From assembly GCF_920987055.1 (NCBI RefSeq), contig NZ_CAKLBX010000002.1:128979-192978 (forward strand): a DNA stretch of 64,000 nucleotides. Reading direction: 5' to 3'. Origin of the DNA: Novosphingobium sp. CECT 9465. GTDB lineage: Bacteria; Pseudomonadota; Alphaproteobacteria; Sphingomonadales; Sphingomonadaceae. The position numbers and the translations under genes were made by a program. The notes beneath the pieces are model-generated. The model did no database searches. It was not told where the DNA came from and saw only the letters and a list, made by a program, of their open reading frames with translations. This document shows positions 1,511-63,699 of the stretch, piece by piece (position 1 is the first letter of the stretch; each line of letters begins with the position of its first letter).

Positions 1511-2818
1511 TCACATCAAGCCTTTTTTCGGGTGCCAGGTTCGAATACCCGTCAGCTTCTGCGGCGGTGACCAGGCCAGCAGGGCGAGACCGTCGCGGAA
1601 CAGCGCATAGTCGTAGTCCTCGCGCGTGCGTCGGCCGACTGGTTCCGCGCCGCCAGCGGCAAAGCCCGCAAGATCGTTCACCGGCAGTTCCAGGATTTCC
1701 GGTCGTTTCCGCGGACCGAAGCGAATCATGCCGGTCAATGCGTCGAGAAACGCGGTGCCGGCTTTCTCCTCGATGACAAACATATAGAGCGGCGGCAGGC
1801 CGCTCGCCCAGCGCCGCTCCAAGCGGTGACGCCAGAACGGATGGTCATGGAGATCGTCGAACGACAGATAGGGGGATCGATACGGCGCCAGCGCGTCGGT
1901 CGAGGCAAGGAACGACCGGCCCGCATAATCGAACGTGAGGAAGGTCACCGGCTCGGCGTCTTCCGGGAAATCGCGGTCCCCATTGAGCCAGTCGATCCAG
2001 CCGGCGACCGGCAGCGCATCCATGAGGATGAAGTTCTAGCGGTGCGTCGCCAGTGCCATCGCCGCTGGCACGGGGTTCGACGCTCCTGACGCCGTCATCG
2101 GCGCGGCGATCTTTCCTGACTTGGGTTTGGATCGCAGCGTTTGCGACAGCCGCAGGAAGGCACCGGGCATCCCAGGACGCGCGCCGAACGCGATCGAGTA
2201 GCCGTGGATGACTTGGCCGTGAGGTGAGGCCGCGCCGATATAGGGGCGGACCTAACGCAGATATTTGCGCTGCGCCTCCGACGCCATCTTGGCGTCGCTG
2301 GCATTCGCGGCGAACGAACCGCGCGCCTCGGCCAGCACGACACCGTGACCGAGCGCGGTGCCACCATAATAGAGGAAATCGGCATGTGGCTCAAGCGATG
2401 ACGAAAGACAGGCTGCATTGTCGCGCCAGCCATAGCCGAGCGCGTTCATATAGAGATCGATGATGCCTGCGCCCACCCGCGAGGCGAAATGGGTGCGTTC
2501 GTTATCGGCCAAGCAGGAAATCAGGTCCGACAGTTCGAAACCGGGGCCGTCGGCAAGCAGAACCTGCGCCTCGCTCAGCGCGCTGTCCTTCATGTGCGCG
2601 AGCAAGGCCGGTGGCGCGTTGCGAAGAGTCGCGGTGCGCGCGGTCGCTGCGGCCAGGGCGGTTGGTCCGAATCGGATCTGCGGTACCAGCACCGGCGCGG
2701 TGAAGGCCGGGGCCACCATTGCGCTCTTGTGGAGATGGCGGCGCTGACCGGTCAGCGCCACCGTCTTGTCGGCTGCCCAGAGTGCGAGCTTGCTCAAAGA
2801 TCGTACCAGTCGAAGCAC
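1511..2818 (-). pseudogene. about 436-codon gene interrupted by two in-frame TAG codons
   Basis: One continuous reading frame runs from a GTG at 2818 to a stop at 1511, broken only by TAG at 2254-2252 and TAG at 2038-2036. The 70-odd codons between the two ambers keep strong GC3 bias and protein-like sequence (VRPYIGAASPHGQVIHGYS), and the frame never shifts, so all three parts belong to one ancestral gene. A start is available at 2023 for the last part alone (170 aa), but that reads as a C-terminal domain. The 5' end overlaps the upstream HEPN gene by 25 bases, which implies cotranscription. I do not recognise the family. Alternatives are three separate short genes or amber readthrough; recent decay is most likely. 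Confidence 0.6.
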
Positions 2819-3378
2819 CCCGTTGCCGCGATGAAGCGCGCAAGGATACGATCCGAGGCGAACACTAGATCACGGTCACGGAAGCTCTGGGGCGACTTCT
2901 CGCCGTGGAAGAGATTGCATCGAACCTCGTAAATGGTCCGCAGCAGCTGCTCCCAGTTTGGATGGCTGCCGGCGACCCAGCCGGCGGGCTGTTGCTTGAC
3001 ATTCTCCGCAGCGCAGAGCGCCAGCAGCGCCGCGCGGTCGTGCTGGCGAAACGCGTCATAGCCGAGCTTCGCCCGTACGCTGCGCACGTTGAGCACAGGC
3101 CACAGGGCGGTGAACTCGGTGACCATCTGCCCGAAATCGGGATCGCCGGCCATGAGCTGATCGAAAGCGTCGATCAGCCGCGGCGCAGCCACGAACGCAT
3201 CGATCATCTCCCGGTCGGTGCCTTTCAGGGTCACCGCAGACATCCAGCCGTTGAAGGCCATCCACCGGTACATAAATGCCATGAAGGAAGGGGGCTGCCT
3301 TTGCGCGTTGGCGAGCAGTTCAATTGCCACATCGCGTATTGCCGGATCGAGGCGGTGGAAGTTGCTGAAGTTGAGCAT
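2794..3378 (-). CDS. HEPN-domain protein (RNase-like)
   Basis: A 194-residue, all-helical protein. Near the C-terminus it carries the HEPN motif R-x4-H at Arg153-His158 (RCNLFHGEK), preceded by helices rich in Ala/Leu. HEPN domains are commonly metal-independent RNases in toxin-antitoxin, abortive infection and CRISPR ancillary proteins. Length and motif position fit the ApeA/RiboL-like group of single-domain HEPN proteins. It overlaps the 5' end of the amber-broken gene by 25 bases, so the two were probably a unit. No adjacent MNT nucleotidyltransferase antitoxin is present. Family assignment rests on the motif alone. Confidence 0.6.
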   Translation of the reverse strand: MLNFSNFHRLDPAIRDVAIELLANAQRQPPSFMAFMYRWMAFNGWMSAVTLKGTDREMIDAFVAAPRLIDAFDQLMAGDPDFGQMVTEFTALWPVLNVRSVRAKLGYDAFRQHDRAALLALCAAENVKQQPAGWVAGSHPNWEQLLRTIYEVRCNLFHGEKSPQSFRDRDLVFASDRILARFIAATGCFDWYDL

Positions 3379-3611: not shown

Positions 3612-5339
3612 TTACTTCAGCCAATGGCCAAAATCGTCGGAGACGCCCGCCGCATGCCAAGGGCTTTTCCAGATCTCGTAGTATCGAATGTCGTTCGACG
3701 ACGGCTTTGGCGAGCATTCGGTGATGTATACGACGCACGGCATTGCAACCGCATCGCCGATGAGTAGCGCCTCGCCCTGCTCGAGTGCGGGCAACCCTGC
3801 GGTCAAATTGCCGAGCGTGTCGGGCAACAAGCGCCTCACATAGGCTTGGTCTTCCGGGTTCGTCAGGCGCATCGCAAGGAAATTGCTGCACTGTGAAAAG
3901 ATCGTCTCCGAGATCTCCGATGGGCGTTGGCTTGAGATCATGAGGCTGACCCCGTATTTTCGCCCCTCCTTGGCAATTCGCTCGATCGAGTTCAGCGAAG
4001 CTTTAAAACGCGCGAGATCGCTGCGCGGCGCATATTTGTGGGCCTCCTCGTAGACGAGCAGGAACGGCGTCTCGCATTGGCCGGTCTGGCGCCGCGCGTG
4101 GTACGAAAAATCGAATAGGAGCCGCGTCACCAGCGATACTGTTATGCTGAGGACCTCAAACGGTATGCCGCTCAAATCAAGGATGGTGACGTTGGAGTTT
4201 GTGGTCTTTTCATAGCCGGTTATCTGACGGATGACGTCTTCGAGCGTCGCGTCCGCAGCCTTTGGACCGAACATGAAATTGAGCCGCGAATTGTTAATCT
4301 TCGCTGATATCCGCCGGACGAACTTGTCGATCGTGCCATCGGCATAGGGACCGTTGTTAATCTTGCCTGTGGCTTTGAAAGCGAAGTCCACCGGTTGAGT
4401 ACAATAGGCGGTCAAACGCTCGCGATCGTCGGCATAGGTTACCGAATTCCCGTCCTTGGTCTTGATCGTGAGCGGATCGTTTGCATCCTTGGTCTCCCGC
4501 GAGAGATTGGCGAAACAAGTTTGTAGTTGGGCAATGTCGTACTTCAGGGGACTATCGAAATTGACTTTGGCGACCCCCGGATTGGCCATCTCCTTGCAAT
4601 GGGTGATGATCGTCCTGAGCAACGCTTCCTGATTGTAATTGTTGCTGTCGCCCGACTCGAGGAACATGTCGCCCATCTCGCCGTCGTTAAGCAGCCAATA
4701 CGGGAGCACGATGTCGTCGGCGGATAGTAGCTTGGCCGCGGGAAAGGCGGATGCATATTCTCCGTGGATGTCGAAAATGACGATGTGCGAATTGTTGAGC
4801 CCGGCGTATCCGTGCGACTTCGCGGCCGTTGCCTCCTGCAGAATTCTGGACACGCTGGACGACTTTCCCGACCCTGTCGCGCCCACTACGGCGATGTGCT
4901 TATTGAAGAAACGGTCGCCGTGGACGGGAACCTTCACATCCCGTTGCCGTGTGAGCGAGGAGAAACAGCACCGTTGCTGTTCCTCGAAAGCATTGGCGTA
5001 GATCGCAGCAATTTCTTCGCGAGTCGCAGGTACGACCCGCTTGGGCGGAATTGCAAGTTCGTCGCCGCCGCGCCGGAAGATGTTTCCCTTGAGCGTTCCA
5101 AGTGGATAAGCATCGATCATGTAGACGCGCTCGTGGTCATCGCCCTTCGCCCGCATCTCGATTGAAAAGCTTTCGATGATGCAGATCAGCGATACATTAT
5201 CGTTGTCGGAAATCTTTAGAAATGATCCGACGCGCAGCGACTGCCCGGCGATCTCGAAGGACATGAGGTTATTGACGGCAATACGCACCTTGTTCGGAAA
5301 AACCGAGACAACCTCGGCATTGATCTCGGTCTCTTCCAT
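3612..5339 (-). CDS. HerA-like DNA translocase ATPase
   Basis: A 575-residue HerA/FtsK-superfamily ATPase. An N-terminal beta-rich HAS-barrel-like segment (1-100) precedes Walker A GATGSGKS at 153-160, a Walker B region with the HerA-type motif LLVYEEAHKY, and a downstream SSQRPSE segment typical of HerA sensor/arginine-finger regions. HerA proteins form hexameric rings that pump double-stranded DNA and work with a nuclease partner. Here the partner is the gene immediately upstream, 12 bases away, so the two are almost certainly cotranscribed. Archaeal HerA pairs with NurA; bacterial defence HerA pairs with DUF4297, Sir2 or similar effectors. A role in anti-phage defence is inferred from partner and neighbourhood. 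Confidence 0.88.
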   Translation of the reverse strand: MEETEINAEVVSVFPNKVRIAVNNLMSFEIAGQSLRVGSFLKISDNDNVSLICIIESFSIEMRAKGDDHERVYMIDAYPLGTLKGNIFRRGGDELAIPPKRVVPATREEIAAIYANAFEEQQRCCFSSLTRQRDVKVPVHGDRFFNKHIAVVGATGSGKSSSVSRILQEATAAKSHGYAGLNNSHIVIFDIHGEYASAFPAAKLLSADDIVLPYWLLNDGEMGDMFLESGDSNNYNQEALLRTIITHCKEMANPGVAKVNFDSPLKYDIAQLQTCFANLSRETKDANDPLTIKTKDGNSVTYADDRERLTAYCTQPVDFAFKATGKINNGPYADGTIDKFVRRISAKINNSRLNFMFGPKAADATLEDVIRQITGYEKTTNSNVTILDLSGIPFEVLSITVSLVTRLLFDFSYHARRQTGQCETPFLLVYEEAHKYAPRSDLARFKASLNSIERIAKEGRKYGVSLMISSQRPSEISETIFSQCSNFLAMRLTNPEDQAYVRRLLPDTLGNLTAGLPALEQGEALLIGDAVAMPCVVYITECSPKPSSNDIRYYEIWKSPWHAAGVSDDFGHWLK

Positions 5340-5351
5340 CCCAAGCGCTCC

Positions 5352-6602
5352 CTATACGATTTTCATGGCCATCGCAGCACTGCGCACGGGCACAGAAATC
5401 TGCCGAAACTTCGCATCGATCGCCTGCGGTTTGCCGGCATGAAGCTGGACAACGAGTTTGCGGCGCACTGATGCATCGAGCGCGGCGGCTAACTGGGCGC
5501 TGTCACCGACGATGCGGGCCGCGATTGGCTCAAGCGCCGTCTGAGCGAGCAGAAGCTGCTGTGTAGTGAATGGCGCCCCAAAAAAGGCATAGCCGTCTGT
5601 GATCCGGTAACTTTCGCCGATCAGCTGGCTCTTTAGCTCAACGAGATCTGCGGGGTCGATACCGGGAAAAAAGAAGAAAGGCGCGTAGCGTTCTTTCGCC
5701 GGTTTGGACTTCGAGCTGTGACTGCTCCATCCGTCGATGATGTGGCGCACTAGGGTGACCAGCATATCCAAGGTTTCGGTGTCGGGCAGGTCGATGATGA
5801 AGAAGCGGTCATGATTCTCGACGTTAAGACGGGCAAAATGTGCTTCGCGGATCAACTTGCAGTAGGCCGCTTCGCTTTCCCTTCGGAGCGCCCAGGCCGA
5901 ATAAACTGCGACATTGGGCTGGATCTGCTGGAGGAAATCCTTGCGCGTCGTAGTCCGCGCGGCTTTCGACGAAGCGCTCGAGAGCGAAGCCATTGCTGAG
6001 AACGCCGACGGATAACTGTATAATTTGGCTTCGTCCTCAGCCACGTCGAGCGCGGCGCGCAGCGCTTCGATGACACGTCCTCGGTGCAGGTCGAACGGTT
6101 CGCTAAGAACGACCGTAAACCGGTCGCAAAACACGGTCAGATCCTCGTCCGACGCTCCCAGACTGGTTTGTAGATTGATCGTAGTTTTGACGCGATTCCT
6201 AGTCGTGGGATCGACGGTATACTGGGCGCGGACGAGCACGCGCTGCAAATCGGCAAGTTCATAGGATGTCGCTACGCCAGCCGAGTCTTTGAAGTAGCCG
6301 TAGAGGACATATTTTTTCCGGAGGCGAACGTCCGCGGGATAGCGGAGGAAACCCGTAATCATCGGCAAAATCGCGTCGCGCAAAGTCGAATCCGTGAGCT
6401 TTTGCGCTTCGTAGTACTTGACCTGTCCATGCGTCTGGGCCTCGTCCGCAAGAACGTCGAAGTCTTCGACCCCCTCCACGGTGATCGACTCGGACTCCGT
6501 CGCGCCAAGCACGGCGAGAATGCTCGCGTCGAACTGATACATGTAGCCGCGGATCGTTGCCGTCGCTTCGCGCTGCGCTTCCTGAACTTCCGCCTGGTCC
6601 AT
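5352..6602 (-). CDS. DUF4297/Cap4-like nuclease partner of HerA
   Basis: A 416-residue protein. Its first 70 residues carry a nuclease-like core: GYMYQFDASILA helix (19-30), Glu43/Glu46, Asp49, then Gln60-Val61-Lys62 (GQVKYYE), which matches the DUF4297-type PD-(D/E)XK pattern found in Cap4 and in HerA-associated effectors. The C-terminal 340 residues are mixed alpha/beta and would form the effector's partner-binding or sensing part. I placed the start at the ATG at 6602 because the frame continues upstream only into Arg/Trp-rich sequence. Spacing to herA is 12 bases. HerA-DUF4297 pairs are a reported phage-defence system; membership here is inferred from motif and synteny. Confidence 0.75.
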   Translation of the reverse strand: MDQAEVQEAQREATATIRGYMYQFDASILAVLGATESESITVEGVEDFDVLADEAQTHGQVKYYEAQKLTDSTLRDAILPMITGFLRYPADVRLRKKYVLYGYFKDSAGVATSYELADLQRVLVRAQYTVDPTTRNRVKTTINLQTSLGASDEDLTVFCDRFTVVLSEPFDLHRGRVIEALRAALDVAEDEAKLYSYPSAFSAMASLSSASSKAARTTTRKDFLQQIQPNVAVYSAWALRRESEAAYCKLIREAHFARLNVENHDRFFIIDLPDTETLDMLVTLVRHIIDGWSSHSSKSKPAKERYAPFFFFPGIDPADLVELKSQLIGESYRITDGYAFFGAPFTTQQLLLAQTALEPIAARIVGDSAQLAAALDASVRRKLVVQLHAGKPQAIDAKFRQISVPVRSAAMAMKIV

Positions 6603-6615
6603 ACCGCAGTCTCGG

Positions 6616-6729
6616 TTAGTGAGAGCCGTTTGGTCGGACCATGGCGGACTGCGCCTTAACCACGGGTCCCTGCTGAGCCTGCATAGACAGGCCTGCAACA
6701 ACTGACGAAGCGACCAACACTACCCACAT
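6616..6729 (-). CDS. 37-aa hydrophobic leader-like peptide upstream of nuclease-herA
   Basis: A short frame, ATG at 6729 to TAA at 6616, ends 13 bases before the nuclease start. A GGA seven bases upstream of the ATG can serve as ribosome binding site. The product begins with a signal-peptide-like stretch (MWVVLVASSVVAGLSMQAQQ) followed by a polar tail. It could be a leader peptide controlling the nuclease-herA operon, a small secreted peptide, or chance. The evidence is the site, the spacing and the hydrophobic profile only. Confidence 0.35.
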   Translation of the reverse strand: MWVVLVASSVVAGLSMQAQQGPVVKAQSAMVRPNGSH

Positions 6730-6780
6730 TTTTTCATCCGACCCTCTCGCTTGTTAGCCAAGGACGATCAATCATGACTC

Positions 6781-6802
6781 TAGAAAAATCAATAGTTTTC
6801 TA
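6781..6802. promoter_or_regulatory. inverted repeat in divergent promoter region
   Basis: Perfect 7-bp arms TAGAAAA and TTTTCTA are separated by 8 bases. They lie in the only AT-rich stretch between the nuclease-herA operon and the divergent SbcD/YhaN-like operon. Position and symmetry suggest an operator that could serve both directions. No cognate regulator is apparent next to it. Confidence 0.4.
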
Positions 6803-6910
6803 AAGTTAGTTGCAAGGCGGCGCCCAACTGGATGATGATGCAAGGCGGTGACCATAGCCAACACAAATCTGGCTGATCGCGCAGGGATATGGAAGGGGGC
6901 GAGAATTAAC

Positions 6911-8020
6911 ATGAGGCTTATTCATTCGGCGGATTGGCAATTGGGCAAGCCCTTCGGGCGGTTCGAACCCGATGTTCGCGCGGCACTTTACGAAGCTCGC
7001 TTCGACGCCATCGACACGCTCGGCCGGCTCGCCAGTGAGCATGGCGCCAGACATGTGCTGGTAGCGGGTGACGTCTTCGATACCGACGGGCCCGACGATC
7101 GCACAATGGTTCAGGCGGTTTCTCGAATGAGCCGCCATTCCTGCCGTTGGTGGTTGCTGCCGGGGAACCACGACTATGCGCGAAGTGGAGGGCTGTGGGA
7201 CCGTGTCCGGAGCAGTGTCGGTCCCACCATCAATGTCCTAACGGAAGCAGAGCCCGTCGAGATGGAGGATGATATTTGGCTCCTGCCCGCGCCTTTGACA
7301 TATCGGCACAATCTCGAGGACCCGACAGAAGCCTTTGGCGCTATGGAGACCCCCTGCGCACGGCTTCGGATTGGTCTTGCTCATGGCTCCATCCGGGATT
7401 TCGGATCGCGCGGGGAATCCAAGAACCAGATTGCTCCCGACCGTGCGACACGCTCGCGGCTCGATTACCTCGCCCTTGGGGACTGGCATGGCGCGTTGCA
7501 GGTCGATGCCCACACCTGGTACTCCGGCACTCCCGAAACAGACAGCTTCCAGCGCGACGAGCCCGGCCAAGCGCTTCTTGTCGAGCTTGACCAAGGCAGC
7601 ACACCCGTCGTCAAGCCTATTCGTACCGGCCGGTTTCAGTGGCTCATGCGGTCCTGGACCGTAAACGATCATGCTTCATTTGAGGCGGAATGCAGCCAAT
7701 TGCTTGAAACCATCGATGCGCCATCGACGTTGCTACAGCTCTCGCTTGCGGGGATTACGAGTCTGGGTGATCGGGTCGCGATGCTTCAGTCGTTGGAGAC
7801 CGACATCATTCACCGCCTGCGCTTCCTCGATGTCCGGAGCGATGACCTTGTGGGCCGGCCCAGTGAGGAGGATCTCGCCGGACTGGCGGTCGAGGGCATT
7901 CTTGGTGTTGCGGCGGCCCGGCTCAATGAGCAGGCCGCGATTGGAGGAACCGAATCGGTTCTCGCCAAGCGCGCGCTCGAACGCCTCTTTGTCGAATACA
8001 GCCGGGGAGGGCAGCCATGA
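6911..8020 (+). CDS. SbcD/Mre11-like metallophosphatase nuclease (YhaO type)
   Basis: A 369-residue DNA repair exonuclease of the calcineurin-like phosphoesterase family. The motifs appear in order: ADWQLG (Asp8), GDVFD at 53-57, GNHD at about 85-88, then AHGS and GDWHG, giving the metal ligands of an Mre11 active site. The first motif has Gln where many members have His, as is usual in the YhaO subgroup. I chose ATG 6911, with a GGGGCGAG site upstream, because it gives the canonical MRLIHSADW start; an ATG at 6848 would add 21 unrelated residues. It overlaps the next gene by 4 bases (ATGA), so the products are likely made together as a nuclease-ATPase complex. Confidence 0.88.
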   Translation: MRLIHSADWQLGKPFGRFEPDVRAALYEARFDAIDTLGRLASEHGARHVLVAGDVFDTDGPDDRTMVQAVSRMSRHSCRWWLLPGNHDYARSGGLWDRVRSSVGPTINVLTEAEPVEMEDDIWLLPAPLTYRHNLEDPTEAFGAMETPCARLRIGLAHGSIRDFGSRGESKNQIAPDRATRSRLDYLALGDWHGALQVDAHTWYSGTPETDSFQRDEPGQALLVELDQGSTPVVKPIRTGRFQWLMRSWTVNDHASFEAECSQLLETIDAPSTLLQLSLAGITSLGDRVAMLQSLETDIIHRLRFLDVRSDDLVGRPSEEDLAGLAVEGILGVAAARLNEQAAIGGTESVLAKRALERLFVEYSRGGQP

Positions 8021-10641
8021 GCCTTGTGATCCGTCGCATCGCCATCGAGAACTTCAGGAAGTTCCGTGATCCGTTCACGATCGACAATCTGACCGATGGC
8101 CTCAACATCATCATCGAGCCGAACGAGACGGGCAAGTCGACCCTGATGGAGGCGCTGCGCGCGGCGTTTTTCGTGCGCCACAACACGCAGAACCAGCTCG
8201 CCAAGTCCTACGCACCGCGCGGAGATTCGGTTGCGCCACGGGTCGAGATCGATTTCCTCATCGACGGCGCAGAGTGGTCGCTCCGAAAGAGGTTTCTCAA
8301 ATCAGCATCAATTGACGTTGAGGGGCCGCAGGGCAGGGCGCAGGGCGATGAAGCTGAAGCCCTGCTCAACACGCTGCTTGGCTCAGTGCGCGATACCAGC
8401 AGGGCAGGGGATGTTTCCACCTATGGAGCGCTCGGCCTTTTGTGGGTGGCGCAAATGGACGCGCTCGAGATCCGTGCGCCGGGTGCCATCGTGCGCGACA
8501 CGATTACCGCTTCGCTTGAAGCGGAAGTCGGATCGATCATGGGCGGCGAGGCCTACCGCAAGGTGCGAGAGCGCGTCGATGCGCAATACGAGCTCTACTG
8601 GACCCCAACGGGTGTGAAGAAGGGTCGTCAGGTCGAGGCGCTCCGTCGCTTGGAGGTCGCTGTGGCGGCCTCTGCCGAGGCTGATGACAAAGTCGCGCAG
8701 CTTGAGAAGAGCTTCGGCGAACTTGATGTTTGCCGCCAGCGCTTGTCTGTTTTGCAGCGCGAAATGGCTGATCAGACCGATAGCCAGACACGCGCTGAAC
8801 TTGTCTCATCGCTTGAGGTGGCGCGGATGGCTGCGCAGCTTCTGGCAACCCGGCAGGCAGAAAACGAGGTGGCAGCCGGGCGGCTCGCCAAACTCGAAGA
8901 TATTCAGGGGCGGCATGAAGCCGCAGTGCTGGCGCGCGACAAGGCGGCGAGGGCTCTTCAGGATGCGCGTGACCTCCGAGCAACGTCTAGCGAGCGCGTT
9001 AAAGCCTCTCAGAGCAAGGTTGGCGATGCGCGTTTGGCGTTGCTTGAGGTGCAAGCGGCACATCAGCGGGCGGCTGATGCGTATGAAGAGGGGTTGGAGG
9101 CCCACAAAGAACAGCAGCTGCAGGATGCAACGGCAGAAGCGCGTCAGCGATATCGCGAGCTGATCGGCCTCGAAGCAGAACTCGAGGCGATGAAGCGCGT
9201 CGAGCTCGGTGCGATCCCCAACGACAAGCTGGCCGCACTCGAGGGCAATGAGCGTGCTGTCGTCGAAGCGCGCGCCCGGGTCGATGCCGGCGCCGCGCAT
9301 GTCACGCTGAGCGGAGATGCCGAAGGCGTCATGATCGATGGCGAGCCCATGGCACTTGGCACCCGAGCGCTGACACAAATGACGCGTATTCAGCTTGGCA
9401 GCGCCGAGCTTGCTATCACACCGCCAGCGTCAGCCGCCAGCGCCGAAGAGCTGCTGGCCGAGGCAGTCAGCAAACAGGAGGGTGCGCTCTTCGCTCTCGG
9501 CGTTGCCGATCTCGCGGCTGCGCGCGAACGAACAATTGCCGCGCGCGAGGCATCAGCTGAGATACGGACGCTCACGGCCCAAATTGCGGCAGCTTCGCCT
9601 GCAGACGACCGCATTGGCCTTGCCGCCGGGGCAGACGCGCTGAAGCTCTTTGTCTCCTCGCTGCCGGAGCCCGCAGCCGGGGTTCATCATGTCGCCGTAG
9701 ACCTCAACGTGCTTAAGCAGCAGCTTGAGATCGATGCCACGGCGCTGGCGCGGGCTGAAGGCGTGGTTCAGAGCGCAATCGAAGATTTGCGCAAATGCGA
9801 GGCGGAGGAAGCGCCTCACGCGACTGCCGAGGCGCTGGCCCAGAATGATCTGACTACCGCGCAGAGCGTCATTGCCAGCATTGAGGCCCATCCCGATTGG
9901 GAGGGGCTTGCCGAAGCGATATCCAGTGCGCGCCAGCGCGCCGCCGAAGCTGCAATCCAGCTTGATGCCGCGTCACGCAACGCAACCGCGCACGATGTGG
10001 CGGACATCAACCGCAAGATTGCGACGATTGATGCGCGCGCGAGCGCCGCTGCGGGTCAGAAGACAGACCTTGAGAAGGACATTGCCCGGCTCGAAGCTAC
10101 AATCGAGAGTGAAGGAGGGCGCGGGCTTGCTGAGCAGGCTGCCGCAGCTCGTGACGAACTTGATGCCTCCCGGGCAGCGCTTCAGCGGGTGACCGATGAT
10201 GCCAACACCGTCATGCTTCTGCGCAACACGCTAGAGGCTGCCCGCAACGAGACCTCAGCGCGATTTGTTGGACCTGTCGCCCGCCGCGCCAAGGGCTATA
10301 TTGAGCGTCTTCTACCAGGCTGCGAGCTCGCCTTCTCTGACAGCATGGCGCTCGAGAGCGTTATACGCGCCGGAAAGGAGGAGCAGTCGGACAGCCTTTC
10401 CCGCGGTACGCAGGAACAGCTTGCGATCCTGACCCCGATTGCGTTTGCCGACATGCTCCGCGACCAGGGCAAGCCGATTTCTCTGATCCTCGACGATCCG
10501 CTCGTCTATTCCGATGACGCCAGGCTCGACACAATGATCGACATCCTGACCGAAGCAGCCTCGCAGATGCAGGTTATTCTCCTCACCTGCCGTGACCGGG
10601 CATTCCGACACGTGGACGGCAATCGTGTGCGGCTTGGGTGA
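8017..10641 (+). CDS. SMC/Rad50-like AAA ATPase (YhaN type)
   Basis: An 874-residue coiled-coil ATPase. The N-terminal ATP-binding lobe has a modified Walker A (EPNETGKST, 34-42). A long Ala/Glu/Arg-rich coiled coil fills the middle, interrupted by a globular insert around residues 420-480. The C-terminal lobe carries the ABC signature LSRGTQEQLA and Walker B LILDDPLVYSDD. No CxxC zinc hook is visible, which separates it from classical SbcC/Rad50 and fits YhaN-like proteins. Starting on the ATGA overlap with the Mre11-like gene, it probably forms the ATP-dependent end-processing complex with that nuclease. The neighbouring HerA-nuclease pair suggests a defence role. Confidence 0.87.
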   Translation: MSLVIRRIAIENFRKFRDPFTIDNLTDGLNIIIEPNETGKSTLMEALRAAFFVRHNTQNQLAKSYAPRGDSVAPRVEIDFLIDGAEWSLRKRFLKSASIDVEGPQGRAQGDEAEALLNTLLGSVRDTSRAGDVSTYGALGLLWVAQMDALEIRAPGAIVRDTITASLEAEVGSIMGGEAYRKVRERVDAQYELYWTPTGVKKGRQVEALRRLEVAVAASAEADDKVAQLEKSFGELDVCRQRLSVLQREMADQTDSQTRAELVSSLEVARMAAQLLATRQAENEVAAGRLAKLEDIQGRHEAAVLARDKAARALQDARDLRATSSERVKASQSKVGDARLALLEVQAAHQRAADAYEEGLEAHKEQQLQDATAEARQRYRELIGLEAELEAMKRVELGAIPNDKLAALEGNERAVVEARARVDAGAAHVTLSGDAEGVMIDGEPMALGTRALTQMTRIQLGSAELAITPPASAASAEELLAEAVSKQEGALFALGVADLAAARERTIAAREASAEIRTLTAQIAAASPADDRIGLAAGADALKLFVSSLPEPAAGVHHVAVDLNVLKQQLEIDATALARAEGVVQSAIEDLRKCEAEEAPHATAEALAQNDLTTAQSVIASIEAHPDWEGLAEAISSARQRAAEAAIQLDAASRNATAHDVADINRKIATIDARASAAAGQKTDLEKDIARLEATIESEGGRGLAEQAAAARDELDASRAALQRVTDDANTVMLLRNTLEAARNETSARFVGPVARRAKGYIERLLPGCELAFSDSMALESVIRAGKEEQSDSLSRGTQEQLAILTPIAFADMLRDQGKPISLILDDPLVYSDDARLDTMIDILTEAASQMQVILLTCRDRAFRHVDGNRVRLG

Positions 10642-11700: not shown

Positions 11701-12531
11701 ATGGCGGAAGGTTGGACCGAATTCGAAATTGACGCGGTTGTCGCCGACTATTTCGGAATGCTTGCCGACGAACTCGCAGGCCGTTCGTTCATTAAGCTTG
11801 CGCTCTATCGCAGCCTTGCTGAAAAAATCCCGAGAAACATCAAATCTATCGAGCGCAAGCACCAGAACATCAGCGCGATCATGATTGGTTTTGGTCAACC
11901 ATGGGTCACAGGCCTCAAGCCGGCTAAGCATTATCAGAATGCGTTGGCAGACGGAGTCTTGCGGTGGCTGGACCAACGACCGGATTGGCTTGAGCCGAGA
12001 ATTCAGGCGGATGAAGGCAATCCGGTTCGTAAAGTGTCGTCGCTACTGATTGGACCTCCACCCACGCATCAGAATGAACCGCCCTTGATAGATCCGGCTT
12101 TGATGGCCGCCATCGGCAAGAAATATGATGTGGCTGAACGCGATGCGAGAAACCGCCGACTGGGCAAGGCTGGTGAAGAGTTGGTCCTGCATCACGAGCG
12201 CCAATCGCTTTTGCGAGCCGGCCGAGAGGAGCTTGCCCATAAGGTGCGTTGGACATCCGTACAGGACGGCGATGGCTATGGCTTCGACATTGCCAGTTTC
12301 GAGCCCGATGGCCGCGAACGGCTCATTGAGGTGAAGACGACCAATGGCTGGGAACGCACACCTTTTCACATCAGCAAGAATGAAGTTACGGTTGCTGAAA
12401 CCCGGGATGATGATTGGCACCTCGTCAGGGTCTGGAACTTCGCGCGCCAACCAAGAGCATTTACCCTTCGGCCCCCGCTTTCGGCGCACGTCGAACTGAC
12501 ACCGACGAGCTTTCTCGCGGCGCTAAGATAG
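11701..12531 (+). CDS. DUF3883 (PD-(D/E)XK-like) protein
   Basis: A 276-residue protein. The C-terminal half is a DUF3883-type nuclease-fold domain: helix RNRRLGKAGEELVLHHE (151-167, Glu159/160), GYGFDIASF with Asp196, then LIEVKTTNG with Glu210 and Lys212. The N-terminal 100 residues are helical and resemble a small DNA- or partner-binding module (FGQPWVTGLKPAKHYQNAL). DUF3883 is common in restriction-like and defence operons, often beside helicases or methyltransferases; here the neighbours are a zinc-module protein and an MmeI-type enzyme. No good ribosome binding site precedes ATG 11701. Endonuclease activity is plausible from intact residues but inferred. Confidence 0.75.
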   Translation: MAEGWTEFEIDAVVADYFGMLADELAGRSFIKLALYRSLAEKIPRNIKSIERKHQNISAIMIGFGQPWVTGLKPAKHYQNALADGVLRWLDQRPDWLEPRIQADEGNPVRKVSSLLIGPPPTHQNEPPLIDPALMAAIGKKYDVAERDARNRRLGKAGEELVLHHERQSLLRAGREELAHKVRWTSVQDGDGYGFDIASFEPDGRERLIEVKTTNGWERTPFHISKNEVTVAETRDDDWHLVRVWNFARQPRAFTLRPPLSAHVELTPTSFLAALR

Positions 12532-12561: not shown

Positions 12562-14055
12562 TTATGCCCCGAGGCGTCCTCGCTCCTGAATCAACCAATC
12601 GAAGGTCTCTTCGGCATTCCAACTGGGAAGACTCCCAGATTGTGTCAAAGCTCTGATCGCATGCTGTCTGGCTTGGGCTACGGGCATGTTTCGACCGTCA
12701 GTGAAGTGCGCTAATTGGAGTGATGCTTCAACAGCGTGGCTCCGGTGCGCCCAGAAATCTTCAGCGCCGCTTGACCATGCGCGGCTCAAATCGATTGCAT
12801 CCCGTAAATGCTCGTCGCTCACGTTGTGTCGCATATGCGGCTTTGCTTCTCCAACCAAGGACCGCAAAATCTCGGGCGATAGGCAGTGCTCGCCGCTTCG
12901 TCCGTCCGCTCGGAGCTTGGCGGCGTCGGTGAGCAAAAGTCGGCAATCCTGGCAAACGGTAGCCTTGGAGCACGACCGGAAGATCGGAATTTCGGTCCTA
13001 TGGACCGAACGAAATGCCAAGGAGCGTTCATCTGTCTCTTCTTGGAAGTCGAATATCTCGTGAATCTGCCCCGTCCATTTTCCTTTGCCTGATAAACGCA
13101 TGATCTCACGTTTCGAGCGCGCACAACAAGCGCAGCGCCAATCGAAAGAGGCTTTGCTCCAAGGACCCGGCTTTTGCATCGCACGATTATGGTCTTGGAA
13201 CTCTTGATTGGTTGGAACTCGAATGTGTGCTGCCGCACCGTTTTTCTTTTTAGACTTGTGGCCATCACCCGCACAGGATCTTGCCCGAAACGCTTCCCAT
13301 AAAGGCGGCAGTTGACCTCTCGCTCCAGCCTGTTGTTTCGCGAGACTTAGAAACATTCGTGCGTCTTGATCACCAGCGATTTTGTATGGATCGCTTTGCT
13401 GCTCGCGATCATGCAACCCTTGTCGCAATCGCGACCCGATCATTTCCACAAACTGAAGCCGGTTCTGAAAGTCTGCATCGGCCTTCGCCCAGACTTTAAT
13501 GCCCCTGTCCAGACTACGTTCATGCGGTTCATTTGGCCGGGCAACAATGAAGGCGCCAATTTCGCTTGGGCTGAAACTGAAGTCGCGATGGACGCGGCCT
13601 CCAAGATCCTTCTTCATTGCTGCATCGGCCGCGTTGCAATCCATGCAAACTAAGGTCTCAGCAAAGCGCTCGGCAAGGGGCAGGACCGCACCACAGGCAC
13701 GCTTTCGCTGAGCAGAGAGGGTGTCCGGAATGCCCTGAAACGCGGTTTCCCGCAGGATCTTGGATGCCCAGTCTCCTAGATGGTCGTGATGACGCTCAAG
13801 CTGGCAGAGTATAATCCCACTGTCGGTCTTCCTCGCAATATCGATCTTCTGCCTCTCACATGCCGGGCATCGCCATGCTAGGGAAGTCATGGCCCATGCC
13901 TCATTCAAATGCATGAGCTCCGTCTCAAAGCGCTGCTTCAAATAGCTTGATAACGCGCTCCAGCGGCCATCGCGAAATCTGGCCAATGGGTGCTCACGCA
14001 CCTCGTAGTCATTCATCGTGGCGAAATCAGGAACGTGAACTGTGATCTCGGGCAT
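12562..14055 (-). CDS. unknown protein with two tandem Cys/His zinc modules (HNH-like)
   Basis: A 497-residue protein with an internal duplication. Module 1: WRCPACERQKIDIAR, then ERHHDHLGD, then LVCMDCNAADA and SFSPSEI. Module 2: WRCACCARSKREIMR, then QIHEIFDF, then TVCQDCRLLLTDAAK and LSPEILRSL. Each has two CxxC pairs framing a His/Asp-rich strand, as in HNH/zinc-finger nucleases; only module 1 keeps the HHDH catalytic-like cluster, so module 2 may be structural. No known family comes to mind. Its 3' end meets that of the convergent DUF3883 gene, 30 bases away. A DNA-binding or nicking role is an inference. Confidence 0.65.
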   Translation of the reverse strand: MPEITVHVPDFATMNDYEVREHPLARFRDGRWSALSSYLKQRFETELMHLNEAWAMTSLAWRCPACERQKIDIARKTDSGIILCQLERHHDHLGDWASKILRETAFQGIPDTLSAQRKRACGAVLPLAERFAETLVCMDCNAADAAMKKDLGGRVHRDFSFSPSEIGAFIVARPNEPHERSLDRGIKVWAKADADFQNRLQFVEMIGSRLRQGLHDREQQSDPYKIAGDQDARMFLSLAKQQAGARGQLPPLWEAFRARSCAGDGHKSKKKNGAAAHIRVPTNQEFQDHNRAMQKPGPWSKASFDWRCACCARSKREIMRLSGKGKWTGQIHEIFDFQEETDERSLAFRSVHRTEIPIFRSCSKATVCQDCRLLLTDAAKLRADGRSGEHCLSPEILRSLVGEAKPHMRHNVSDEHLRDAIDLSRAWSSGAEDFWAHRSHAVEASLQLAHFTDGRNMPVAQARQHAIRALTQSGSLPSWNAEETFDWLIQERGRLGA

Positions 14056-60579: not shown

Positions 60580-63500
60580 CTATCGGCTGCGTTCGATGTT
60601 GCGTTCGGGCACGTCCAGTTGCGGCGTTGCCCGGAGGCTCGCCGGATCGATCCGCGAGGCAGAGGCTTGCCTGTCCTCAGGCGCCCTCAAATGATCGGGA
60701 ATTGTGGGTCGAAACTCGCCAGCCTCGCGGCCGCTGCGCTTCGTCTCGACCTGCTTTTCGCCGAGGGTTTCGAGCGCGCTGGTCTTGTCGCCCGGGTTGC
60801 GGCCGATCTGCGCCAGGAGCCGATCGCGGTCGTTGGTGACGATTGTGATGTCGTCACGCACCCGGGTCATCATGACGAGCGCCAGACGCTGGTTCGACAA
60901 GTGCCGGGCTGATGAGTGCATCTCACCGATCGCCATGTCGCGGGTGTCGCCCTGCGCCTGATGCATGTTGATCGCATAGGCCAACCCCATGCGCTCGAGC
61001 ATGCGGTCATTCTGCTTGAGTTCTACGGTCTCGCCTGCCTTGTTCTCGAGCGTGACGATCCCATCCCTGATCCCGAGGATCCTCGCCTCCTCGGACTTCA
61101 TCAGCCCCCGGGCATCATCCTTTTTGGTCCAGCGGATCTTGTCGCCTTCGTAGATTGTCTCCTTGTGTTTTTCGGAGAGCCTCAAGGCATCACGCTTGTC
61201 CGAAGGGTCGATTGCCGCCGGATCGAATTTGATGAGCTTGCCGCTTTCATCGCGCAGCATGACCCGGCCCTTCGCATCGACGCCTTCGACATCGTACCGG
61301 CCCCGAACAAGCCCTCCGGGGGCGTTCTGGCGCGTCACTTCGAGCAGCTGGCCCTTGCTGTAGGTCGAGGCGTAGCGCAGCTCCTCGCGCGTCGCATGGG
61401 CCGGGAGGAGCGTGGTCAGCCTCAGCCCTTCCCCCTGGATCGCCCCTTCTGCCTTCAGGCCCTGCTGGACCATCCGGTTGAGTTCGCCGCGCGCCGCACG
61501 TCCTGACGAATAAATCGCGGTTCGCTCGCGATCGTCCGGCGACAGCTCCAGCCATTTTTGAGCGGTGACCTTGAGGTGGTCTGCGCCTGCTTCTACGACG
61601 CGCTCGCCAAGCGAGGCAAAGCTTTCCTTGAACATGCCGGCGCGCACCAGGCCCGCCGCTTCCTTCATGTGCTCGGTGCGTTGCCGCAGACTGGTGTCTA
61701 TGCGGGCCATTGCGGGGTTATCGGACTGGATCAGCGAAAAGCTCTTGCCCGCCTCGATCGGTTGCAACTGAGCGCGGTCTCCAATCATGACCAGCTTTTC
61801 AACACCAAGCCGGTTAGCGATCGTGAGCAGGTCATTCATCGGCTTGTTCGCAACCAGCGACGCCTCGTCCAACACCAGCACTTTGCCGCGCAAGGCTTCG
61901 CGCGATGCCTCGAACTTCGGACCCGAACCCGCAAGCGCGGGCCGCAGATGCTCATTCACAAAGGATGAGACGGTTCTTGCTGCGATTTCCTGCCTGACGA
62001 CCTCTCCGTCTGGCCCGCGGATCTCCGTCCCGGTCCGAAGATCGCTGACCATCTTGTTGGCAAAGGCGAGGCCGATCACCTCCCTTCCCTCCTGATGCGC
62101 CACGCTCGCAATCGCCGAGATGATCGTCGTCTTTCCGGCACCTGCGACACCCTGGATCACGACCGTGCGGTCCTTGCTGGCGAGCGCCAGTGTTCCGGCG
62201 GCAATCTGCTCGGCGTTGAGGTCATGAGTGCCCGCGACTTGCCGCAAGCGCCCGGGTGCCTCGGCGGCTTCGATGATGACCTGGCCTGCATCCTTTCCCG
62301 CGGCGACATTGGCCAGCGTTGCCCGCTCGATCTCGACATGTTCGGGTGTGGTGTATTTCTCGGGCCGGCCATCGAGCCTGTCGCTCTTGCCCTCAAGCAC
62401 CCTCCCGTCGGCCACCAAGACGCCGATCCGTGCTTCCACCCCGTCAGCGGTCACGCCTTTTACGCCAAGGTCGAGCGCGGTCTTGACCAGGTCGCCTCGG
62501 CTCCAGGAGGTTTCACGTTCGCCGATGATCCTGATCGCAGAAGCGGTTGCCATCTCAGTGCGCAGCTGCGTGGGCGTCAGGGTGATCCGTTGCAGGCCAT
62601 TGGTTGTCAGTGTGTCCGCTGGCCGAGTGTAGAGCTTCACGCTGTCGCGGAGCGCGCTCAGCGTCTCCTGCACCCGCTGAGGCGATCCCAATGGGCTCTC
62701 GCGCCCCTCGGAGCCGCGTTCACGCGCCTGTTCGACCAGCACCTTGGCATCGAACCCCAGCCCGGCAGCGCGCTTGGCCCATTCTTGCCGGAGCGCCAGC
62801 TTGTCGTCCGGATTCAGCTTGGGATCGCGGGTGCGCTTGGTGATTTCACGCAAGGCTTCTGTGTCGTTTGCGCTCTTCCCGAGTTTCTCGGCCGTTGCCA
62901 GAATGGTCAGGCGACGCTGGCTGAAGGCTTCGATCACATCGCGCGCCACGCCCTTGATTTCGAACTGGCCGTGCTTGCCCGTGATCTGGGTTTCGTAGCC
63001 GAGCTTCTCGAGGTTCGTCCGCAGCGCGGCGTTGTAGATGGAGCCAAGGACTGTGTTGTTCTTCCAAATATCTCCGTTCCACAGCGCCTTCCAGTTACCA
63101 TCCTTGTCCTGGGTGATCGCGGCGATGACGGCATGGGTATGGTTCTGCGGGTCCAGCGCCCGGCTCGTGTCGTGCTGGAACAGGGCATAGAGGAGCTTGC
63201 CTGTGACCACGCCCTCGCCGTTGGCATTGCGTGATCGATCGCGGGCCTGCGCGTAGTGCTTCTCGAGATAGGCCATGGTCGCCTTGACAGCGGCCAGCTG
63301 TGCATCAAGGATCCGCTTGTCGCCGCCCAACTGCGCCAGCAGGCTGGCTGACTTCGGCATGGAGAATGTGAGGTCTATCCCCGAGCGGCGGTTTGCATTG
63401 CCATTTACGACCGTGTCATCGGGCAGTTTGCCATCGAGGACTTTTTCGAAGTCATCCTTGGCAACGGGACCAGCAAGACCGAGTGCTTCGGCGCCCTTCC

Positions 63501-63606
63501 CGCCCCATTCGCTGAGCTCAGCGGGACCATCTCCGACATAGTAGTCGTCCTTGGCGAAGTAGTTTGCGGCGCCGCCGGCTGACGCGACTGATGCGACCGA
63601 CAGCAT
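60580..63606 (-). CDS. traA: MobF-family relaxase-helicase TraA
   Basis: A 1008-residue bifunctional conjugation protein. The N-terminal TrwC-type relaxase has catalytic tyrosines Tyr22/Tyr23 (KDDYYVGDG) and the metal-binding histidines His145, His156, His158 (NHTHAVIA). A central RecD-like SF1 helicase follows, with Walker A GVAGAGKTTI and DE motif VLVLDEASLVANKPM, and C-terminal UvrD-like motifs (GLAYAINMHQAQGDTR). It nicks oriT and unwinds the transferred strand. ATG 63606 gives the family start MLSVASVASAGGA; the first 24 codons of the longer frame are not family sequence. First confirmed gene of a minus-strand mobilisation operon. Confidence 0.92.
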   Translation of the reverse strand: MLSVASVASAGGAANYFAKDDYYVGDGPAELSEWGGKGAEALGLAGPVAKDDFEKVLDGKLPDDTVVNGNANRRSGIDLTFSMPKSASLLAQLGGDKRILDAQLAAVKATMAYLEKHYAQARDRSRNANGEGVVTGKLLYALFQHDTSRALDPQNHTHAVIAAITQDKDGNWKALWNGDIWKNNTVLGSIYNAALRTNLEKLGYETQITGKHGQFEIKGVARDVIEAFSQRRLTILATAEKLGKSANDTEALREITKRTRDPKLNPDDKLALRQEWAKRAAGLGFDAKVLVEQARERGSEGRESPLGSPQRVQETLSALRDSVKLYTRPADTLTTNGLQRITLTPTQLRTEMATASAIRIIGERETSWSRGDLVKTALDLGVKGVTADGVEARIGVLVADGRVLEGKSDRLDGRPEKYTTPEHVEIERATLANVAAGKDAGQVIIEAAEAPGRLRQVAGTHDLNAEQIAAGTLALASKDRTVVIQGVAGAGKTTIISAIASVAHQEGREVIGLAFANKMVSDLRTGTEIRGPDGEVVRQEIAARTVSSFVNEHLRPALAGSGPKFEASREALRGKVLVLDEASLVANKPMNDLLTIANRLGVEKLVMIGDRAQLQPIEAGKSFSLIQSDNPAMARIDTSLRQRTEHMKEAAGLVRAGMFKESFASLGERVVEAGADHLKVTAQKWLELSPDDRERTAIYSSGRAARGELNRMVQQGLKAEGAIQGEGLRLTTLLPAHATREELRYASTYSKGQLLEVTRQNAPGGLVRGRYDVEGVDAKGRVMLRDESGKLIKFDPAAIDPSDKRDALRLSEKHKETIYEGDKIRWTKKDDARGLMKSEEARILGIRDGIVTLENKAGETVELKQNDRMLERMGLAYAINMHQAQGDTRDMAIGEMHSSARHLSNQRLALVMMTRVRDDITIVTNDRDRLLAQIGRNPGDKTSALETLGEKQVETKRSGREAGEFRPTIPDHLRAPEDRQASASRIDPASLRATPQLDVPERNIERSR

Positions 63607-63699
63607 CTCAGGCGTCCCCTGCCTGTTCGGGCCGGAGCATGGGCCCGGCACATTGCGCGCAAAATAGGGGGCACACATTGCAGGTCTGTCCTGCCGTGC

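Follow-up and report, generated by a model that had tools for sequence, protein, structure and literature searches.

Among the closest described relatives of the present locus is the anti-phage system DUF4297-HerA, which for another member of the family was reported as a 12:6 complex that threads duplex DNA, cuts it and protects from phage, acting as two components (PMC11291478). Its describers state that the infection trigger is unknown, and report cell toxicity and constitutive activity of the system in vitro (PMC11291478, Discussion). A sister system, SIR2-HerA (Nezha), depletes NAD (PMC11559045). Archaeal HerA-NurA and Mre11-Rad50 share an operon, and their joint action on DNA ends has been proposed (PMC12977600). 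A phage protein is reported to inhibit E. coli Mre11-Rad50, thereby protecting hairpin ends (PMC12624138). Neither Mre11 nor Rad50 occurs in the main text of PMC11291478, PMC10853773 on HerA/FtsK capture systems mentions none of Mre11, Rad50, SIR2 and YhaN, and the available part of PMC12839542 places HerA in BREX-related systems only. Among the titles and abstract openings listed, no report was found linking Mre11-Rad50 or YhaN to DUF4297-HerA or SIR2-HerA defence; older surveys of FtsK-HerA (2004) and ABC ATPases (2020), and preprints, may well contain part of such a link.

The window, a stretch of 64,000 nucleotides from Novosphingobium sp. CECT 9465, lies on a 193-kb contig. The first-pass annotation had described a HerA and DUF4297-like nuclease pair arranged divergently from an Mre11/Rad50-like pair, and all four genes were confirmed with the open reading frame list, Pfam, PADLOC and NCBIfam. 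Each is an uninterrupted reading frame with no internal stop. The features are as follows.

3612..5339, minus strand: HerA-type hexameric DNA translocase ATPase, 575 aa (Pfam DUF87, PADLOC, NCBIfam, PDB)
5352..6602, minus strand: DUF4297/Cap4-type nuclease, 416 aa from the ATG at 6602 (PADLOC, NCBIfam, PDB)
6603..6910, no strand: 308-bp intergenic region shared by the two divergent pairs and containing an 11-nt inverted repeat
6911..8020, plus strand: Mre11/SbcD-like phosphoesterase, 369 aa (Pfam Metallophos, NCBIfam SbcD models, PDB SbcD/Mre11, motifs)
8017..10641, plus strand: Rad50/SMC-like ABC ATPase, 874 aa (Pfam AAA_23 and SMC_N, PDB Rad50, motifs)
11701-12531: PDC-S36/NOV_C gene, downstream of the pairs (PADLOC PDC-S36)
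60580-63678: TrwC-type relaxase with a helicase domain

The HerA protein matches Pfam DUF87 with 108 bits, the full-length anti-phage HerA type of PADLOC (PDLC02188) with 778 bits over residues 2-574, and PDB entry 8xau with an E value of 2e-166. Its score against NCBIfam HerA_antiphage_2 is 807 bits, below the cut-off of 850, so that it is left unnamed under NCBI's rule. The nuclease, whose longest open reading frame starts at a TTG (6701), matches the full-length DUF4297 anti-phage nuclease type of PADLOC (PDLC02187, 254 bits), PDB entry 8xav (E value 6e-39) and, slightly below the cut-off of 300, NCBIfam DUF4297_antiphage (289 bits); no Pfam family matched it at an E value of 0.1. The nuclease gene comes first and HerA follows 12 bp on, on the same strand, which is the DUF4297-HerA gene order. 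The window thus shares gene order, near full-length families and conserved ATPase motifs with the described system (PMC11291478; 8xau, 8xav) and differs from it in scoring just below the NCBIfam equivalog cut-offs and in having an Mre11-Rad50-like pair alongside. It differs from Nezha, some members of which also have the pair beside them, in that the effector is DUF4297 instead of SIR2 (PMC11559045). Judged on its sequence, this half of the locus is a standard DUF4297-HerA immune pair.

The Mre11 and Rad50 genes overlap by 4 bp. NCBIfam SbcD models match approximately residues 1-92 of the Mre11 protein, and the SbcD/Mre11 entries of the PDB were matched using the family profile. The GDxFD and GNHD motifs and the ABC ATPase Walker A and signature motifs are all present, the window Rad50 carrying EPNETGKS as Walker A, LSRGTQE as signature and LILDD as Walker B. 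Alignment of the family profile to SbcD revealed that the SbcCD metal-ligand motifs D-x-H and G-H-x-H are replaced in the window Mre11 by D-x-Q (motif I) and GDWH (motif V). In the alignment of 115 Mre11-like proteins, GDWH replaces the SbcD GHIH in 109 and D-x-Q replaces D-x-H in 100, with 5 falling outside the motif I pattern. The ATPase had been noted to lack the zinc hook of SbcCD, and this held: it has no CxxC, and the motif is missing in 113/114 related ATPases, scanned from residue 250 to 200 residues from the end and with fragments shorter than 600 aa scored as without. The YhaN-like label attached to the same protein was not upheld, as the Rad50/SMC family AAA_23 scores higher (40 bits) than AAA_27, at 21.9 bits against a cut-off of 22 for the 874-aa protein. 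A Rad50-like match lies downstream of the Mre11 gene in 90/90 loci, which together with the motifs indicates that the two genes form a stable unit and a family of their own. By these features the other half of the locus is an Mre11-Rad50-like DNA-end complex of a distinct family, predicted to be neither canonical SbcCD nor clearly YhaO-YhaN.

SbcCD and YhaO-YhaN likewise consist of a gene for an Mre11-like phosphoesterase that overlaps or abuts one for a Rad50-like ATPase, whereas the window family combines D-x-Q and GDWH with the absence of a zinc hook and an 874-aa ATPase; in L180 and L183 the YhaN-type partners are 1135-1149 aa long. The archaeal herA-nurA-mre11-rad50 operon also links a ring motor, its nuclease, Mre11 and Rad50 (PMC12977600). 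Relative to that description, the bacterial loci use DUF4297 or SIR2 in place of NurA (PADLOC and NCBIfam class the window nuclease as DUF4297), are often on plasmids, and have an Mre11 family with altered metal motifs and an ATPase without a zinc hook. Lamassu couples a Cap4-type nuclease, LmuA, with the SMC-like LmuB, and as described in the available text has neither HerA nor Mre11 (PMC10586767). A Lamassu reading of the window was rejected, as the PADLOC matches are weak or partial (LmuA 34 bits, LmuB 40 bits); the window nuclease and ATPase genes also lie on opposite strands and do not form an LmuA-LmuB operon.

The region between the two pairs had been put at about 180 bases with an inverted repeat. 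The repeat is present, with imperfect arms at 6777-6787 and 6796-6806 that are 91% complementary over 11 nt; the length is 308 bp between the ATGs at 6602 and 6911, and the starts of the longest open reading frames in the divergent gap are only 146 bp apart. A simple consensus scan of the 308-bp gap gave no sigma-70-like promoter or terminator match.

Linkage of a HerA-effector system with an Mre11-Rad50-type pair was found in 20 loci, 17 of which are collinear. The order Mre11-Rad50-effector-HerA, in which the effector is DUF4297 or the SIR2 of Nezha, accounts for 12 of the 17 (L012-L014, L066, L078, L086, L095, L134, L145, L179, L275 and L320). The effector start lies between 44 bp inside and 121 bp past Rad50 in L012-L014, L066, L078, L086, L095, L134 and L145, and the spacing is 35 bp in L179 and, according to annotation, 394 bp in L275. 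The order effector-HerA-Mre11-Rad50 occurs in L146, L180, L183, L276 and L269. The non-collinear loci are the window and L188, both divergent, and L015, which is convergent. SIR2-HerA is the system beside the pair in L015, L086, L095, L134, L145, L146, L269, L275 and L320, and YhaN-type pairs are the partners of DUF4297-HerA in L180, L183 and L276. In L015, L188 and L275, annotation places a small KTSC-domain gene immediately after SIR2-HerA.

Counted from the Mre11 side, the best 80 of 578 relatives were taken as genome loci, and a HerA-effector system adjoins the pair in five of them (L066, L078, L086, L095 and L134). In an order-wide sample of 396 genomes Mre11 was detected in 16, among which the window's own genome, G195 and G259 have HerA alongside. 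Three genomes of this sample were taken as repeats of L065, L071 and L087, and with these removed the joint count of HerA with Mre11 is 7/92, a count in which contigs ending near the pair (e.g. L067, L150) were scored negative and which includes L159 with a broken Mre11. In the close clade (at least 46% identity) HerA was found in 6/43 Mre11-ranked loci. The HerA system is the immediate, collinear neighbour in all seven HerA-positive Mre11-ranked genomic loci, with no second HerA match in the fetched stretch of any of them; under uniform placement such adjacency has a probability of ~1e-7, a value that assumes a guessed 19 gaps and ignores relatedness. Plasmid loci were kept out of this forward count because L012-L014 and H66 had been chosen with prior expectation, the former since their coordinates showed both genes and the latter for its expected likeness to H64.

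For the control, a single AbiEii locus of 9.4-17 kb was taken from each of 40 genomes of the same order, drawn from the best-scoring part of 75 positive genomes among 326, with the window's own genome excluded. HerA lies within ~8 kb in 1/40 of the control loci and Mre11 in 0/40; one locus (L312) has a lone Rad50/YhaN-like match and no Mre11. The excess of HerA on the Mre11 side is not significant against this control (7/92 versus 1/40, p = 0.24; 6/43, p = 0.07), which weakens the claim of forward enrichment.

Counted from the HerA side, 13 of the best 19 plasmid matches of the window HerA (H61-H79) were examined; those omitted were H65 (identity like that of H64 and H66), H69-H71 (as H68), H78 (as H77) and H79 (partial). 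The pair lies beside plasmid DUF4297-HerA in seven of the 13 (L012, L013, L014, L179, L180, L183 and L276, the first three of which had been picked on coordinates already showing it) and is absent in six (L177, L178, L181, L182, L184 and L185). After near-copies were collapsed, the pair is present in 5/11 plasmid groups, compared with Mre11 in 0/40 AbiEii loci (p = 0.0002, the HerA loci coming from plasmids and the control from genomes). Among the SIR2-type plasmid loci examined, the pair occurs in L015, L275 and, weakly, L188. In L188, from Sulfitobacter, a WYL gene separates SIR2-HerA from a divergent SbcDC, and this locus is a weak case of linkage because its SbcD (84-96%) lies on 14 other plasmid rows, none of which is among the HerA matches listed.

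Among HerA-chosen genomic loci, from which the window's own genome, G195 and G259 were excluded as having been noticed via the pair, an intact pair occurs in 1/11 (G601, which is L320). Of 61 distinct viral contigs matched by HerA, 60 had no pair in the fetched stretch; some of the 61 stop near HerA, and the matches in L205, L224, L273 and L274 are weak or partial. The sole exception, L269, is a tight SIR2-HerA-Mre11-Rad50 operon. Class-wide scans of 385 genomes each detected HerA (E ≤ 1e-48) in four and Mre11 (E ≤ 1e-40) in 14, with the window's own genome alone common to both sets; they indicate that both halves are rare and are by themselves uninformative on adjacency. An order-wide HerA scan was positive in 353/396 genomes. 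Among the matches listed most align only over approximately residues 340-560 and were taken for a housekeeping HerA-like protein, and defence HerA was therefore not counted from that scan. The side-by-side occurrence implied by the first-pass annotation thus proved recurrent, across several HerA lineages and three Mre11-Rad50 families and more commonly collinear than divergent; an obligate four-component system was not borne out.

Quick trees, with some long branches, were built for both proteins. The Mre11 tree of 115 proteins, 19 of them HerA-labelled, has 14 label changes, 12 of which are forced by starred branches; L179, L180, L183, L188, L269, L275 and L276 entered this tree via HerA or by coordinates. 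The HerA tree of 81 proteins, 18 of them with a pair, has 11 changes, 10 of which are forced, and the presence of the pair is clustered on it (0/500 shuffles as low). In both trees contigs ending close to the pair were scored negative and L188 was labelled. All four members of the HerA clade L086/L320/L145/L095 have a pair, but that of L320 has its best match in an SbcCD-type pair, with the SbcD of L188. All three members of the clade L078/L180/L276 have one as well, from two families and on two sides, L078 having a window-family pair upstream and L180 and L276 a YhaO/YhaN-type pair downstream. Three Mre11-Rad50 families have thus been recruited to HerA systems, and in these two HerA clades the role seems to have been kept while the partner family was swapped.

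The window HerA shares 96% identity with the HerA of G342 (L147), a genome in which the order-wide scan found no Mre11 at E ≤ 1e-30. Directly upstream of the DUF4297 gene of L147 and in the same direction, positions 5941-6147 of G342:C9 contain a scar in which the first 17 residues of Mre11 are joined to ~40-50 residues resembling the middle of Rad50, and each half of the scar beats 300/300 shuffles. The scar implies that the lineage of the window's HerA formerly had the common collinear arrangement. Its Rad50 piece is weakly similar to the window Rad50, and the homology between the window and L147 stops 36 bp upstream of the DUF4297 start. The nearest relative of the window Mre11 is in L016 (89%), in whose fetched stretch no HerA was found. 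The nearest relatives of the two halves of the window therefore lie apart, one without HerA and the other with only the scar, and the association in the window seems to have arisen by replacement or by recent rearrangement. The TrwC-type relaxase gene indicates that the contig is probably a plasmid or an integrated element, probably of a conjugative kind.

The Mre11-Rad50 pair also has other neighbours. In L148 (G418:C15, 1461-9160) it lies directly upstream of Gabija GajA-GajB on the same strand. A further recurring gene set surrounds the pair in L019, L069 and L071: next to Mre11, and abutting it, is a RecB-like/AAA nuclease-helicase of 1099-1123 aa, and after Rad50 comes a DruE-like DEAD/MZB helicase of 1713 aa. 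These families were searched for in L019 and assigned by gene size in L069 and L071. A BrxC-like gene is near the pair in L158, DUF4011 helicase-nucleases adjoin it in L097 and L155, and the neighbour searched in L080, L096 and L153 is a peptidase or a TonB receptor. The pair follows AbiE in L013 and L014 by annotation, and probably in L065 and L150, where the assignment is by gene size. By gene sizes, L013 and L065 are apparently the same Mre11-Rad50 island, with three small genes in L065 at the place that DUF4297-HerA takes in L013. The pair has several partners, of which HerA systems are the most frequent among the identified neighbours, a subset of all neighbours.

We consider it slightly better than an even bet (about 0.5) that the Mre11-Rad50 pair is an optional DNA-end module that has been repeatedly coupled to HerA-effector immunity. 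The sequences show both modules, a linkage between them that is repeated and ordered, three recruited families and the scar of a collinear ancestor. Recurrence, order, exchange of the partner family and the scar lend real support to a coupled system; what weakens this reading is the large number of unpaired cases, the lack of significance in the forward control and the rearranged state of the window. The annotation had raised a single four-component system as opposed to two separate ones. Recurrent linkage favours a functional link between the pairs, whereas 60/61 viral HerA contigs without the pair, and a pair often found with other neighbours, argue against an obligate system.

The mechanism of HerA-effector systems, the archaeal operon and the inhibitor that protects hairpin ends together led us to propose that ends are sensed for the HerA ring, or made ready for it, by the end complex. 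In the mechanism published for other members, HerA is a ring motor threading duplex DNA, and the DUF4297 nuclease becomes active once the complex has assembled. The Mre11-Rad50-like end complex would be an optional partner that recognises free, blocked or hairpin ends of phage or plasmid DNA and opens or cleans them, thereby loading or licensing the HerA-effector complex. The same end module could serve a SIR2 effector, with HerA on DNA triggering NAD loss. We infer joint action of the two pairs, in which the trigger or the DNA end comes from the end complex. In its strongest form, which is offered tentatively, the proposal is a four-component, DNA-end-gated bacterial immunity in which interchangeable Mre11-Rad50 complexes sense ends for, or load, a HerA-effector (nuclease or NADase). 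This would be the defence-side equivalent of the HerA-NurA-Mre11-Rad50 machine that carries out resection in archaea. If true, the four-component reading would offer one explanation of how DUF4297-HerA and Nezha are triggered. A DNA-end complex in the same operon in several lineages is a concrete candidate, and a removable one, for the part of trigger or loader. Bacterial HerA immunity would then be connected to the repair operon of archaea, HerA-NurA-Mre11-Rad50, and defence-finding tools, which among the models met have two-gene models only, would miss half of some systems.

Alternatively, two independent modules may share a common defence island, Mre11-Rad50 being a stand-alone anti-invader or repair complex and HerA-DUF4297 acting alone. 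This has a real, if minority, chance of being correct: the pair is also found beside Gabija, AbiE, RecB- and DruE-like helicases, BrxC, DUF4011 helicase-nucleases and non-defence genes, the forward enrichment over AbiEii is not significant, nearly all viral HerA contigs have no pair, and the nearest relatives of the window's halves are apart. However, independence does not readily account for HerA being the immediate neighbour whenever it is present in the Mre11-ranked genomic loci (7/7), for the collinearity of 17/20 linked loci, for three Mre11-Rad50 families at HerA systems, for two HerA clades that retain a pair despite a change of family, or for the deletion scar of L147. The window itself could be a recent composite, formed by loss of the ancestral collinear pair, as happened in L147, and arrival of another pair facing the other way; in its rearranged state, the neighbourhood as it now stands would then reveal little about what the genes do today. 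The 96% identical HerA of L147 with only a scar, the weak resemblance of the scar's Rad50 piece to the window Rad50, and the end of homology 36 bp upstream of DUF4297 are as such a history would leave them. We nonetheless consider it less likely than not, as the four window genes are intact and a pair again lies directly beside the effector, which fits repeated recruitment.

A protective role for the pair is improbable. In that case Mre11-Rad50 would guard the host as an antidote or a tuning module, repairing or clearing chromosome ends made by the toxic HerA-effector. The classical role of Mre11-Rad50 is end processing in repair, and the toxicity and constitutive in vitro activity of DUF4297-HerA (PMC11291478) would give it a task. 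The pair is, however, also linked to SIR2-HerA, where the harm is NAD loss and DNA repair would be of no help. Moreover, SbcCD and RecBCD or AddAB are usually already present in bacteria.

Several other genes surround the two pairs in the window. Four open reading frames (668-1465, 2252-2818, 2794-3378 and 12562-14055) have no Pfam or NCBIfam match above the curated cut-off and none in PADLOC; one of them, of 497 aa, has several CxxC motifs by eye. PADLOC identifies a type IIG restriction enzyme downstream. Relatives of the PDC-S36/NOV_C gene occur near Mre11-Rad50 in L019 and L069 (67-68%) and in L116 and L125 (36-38%).
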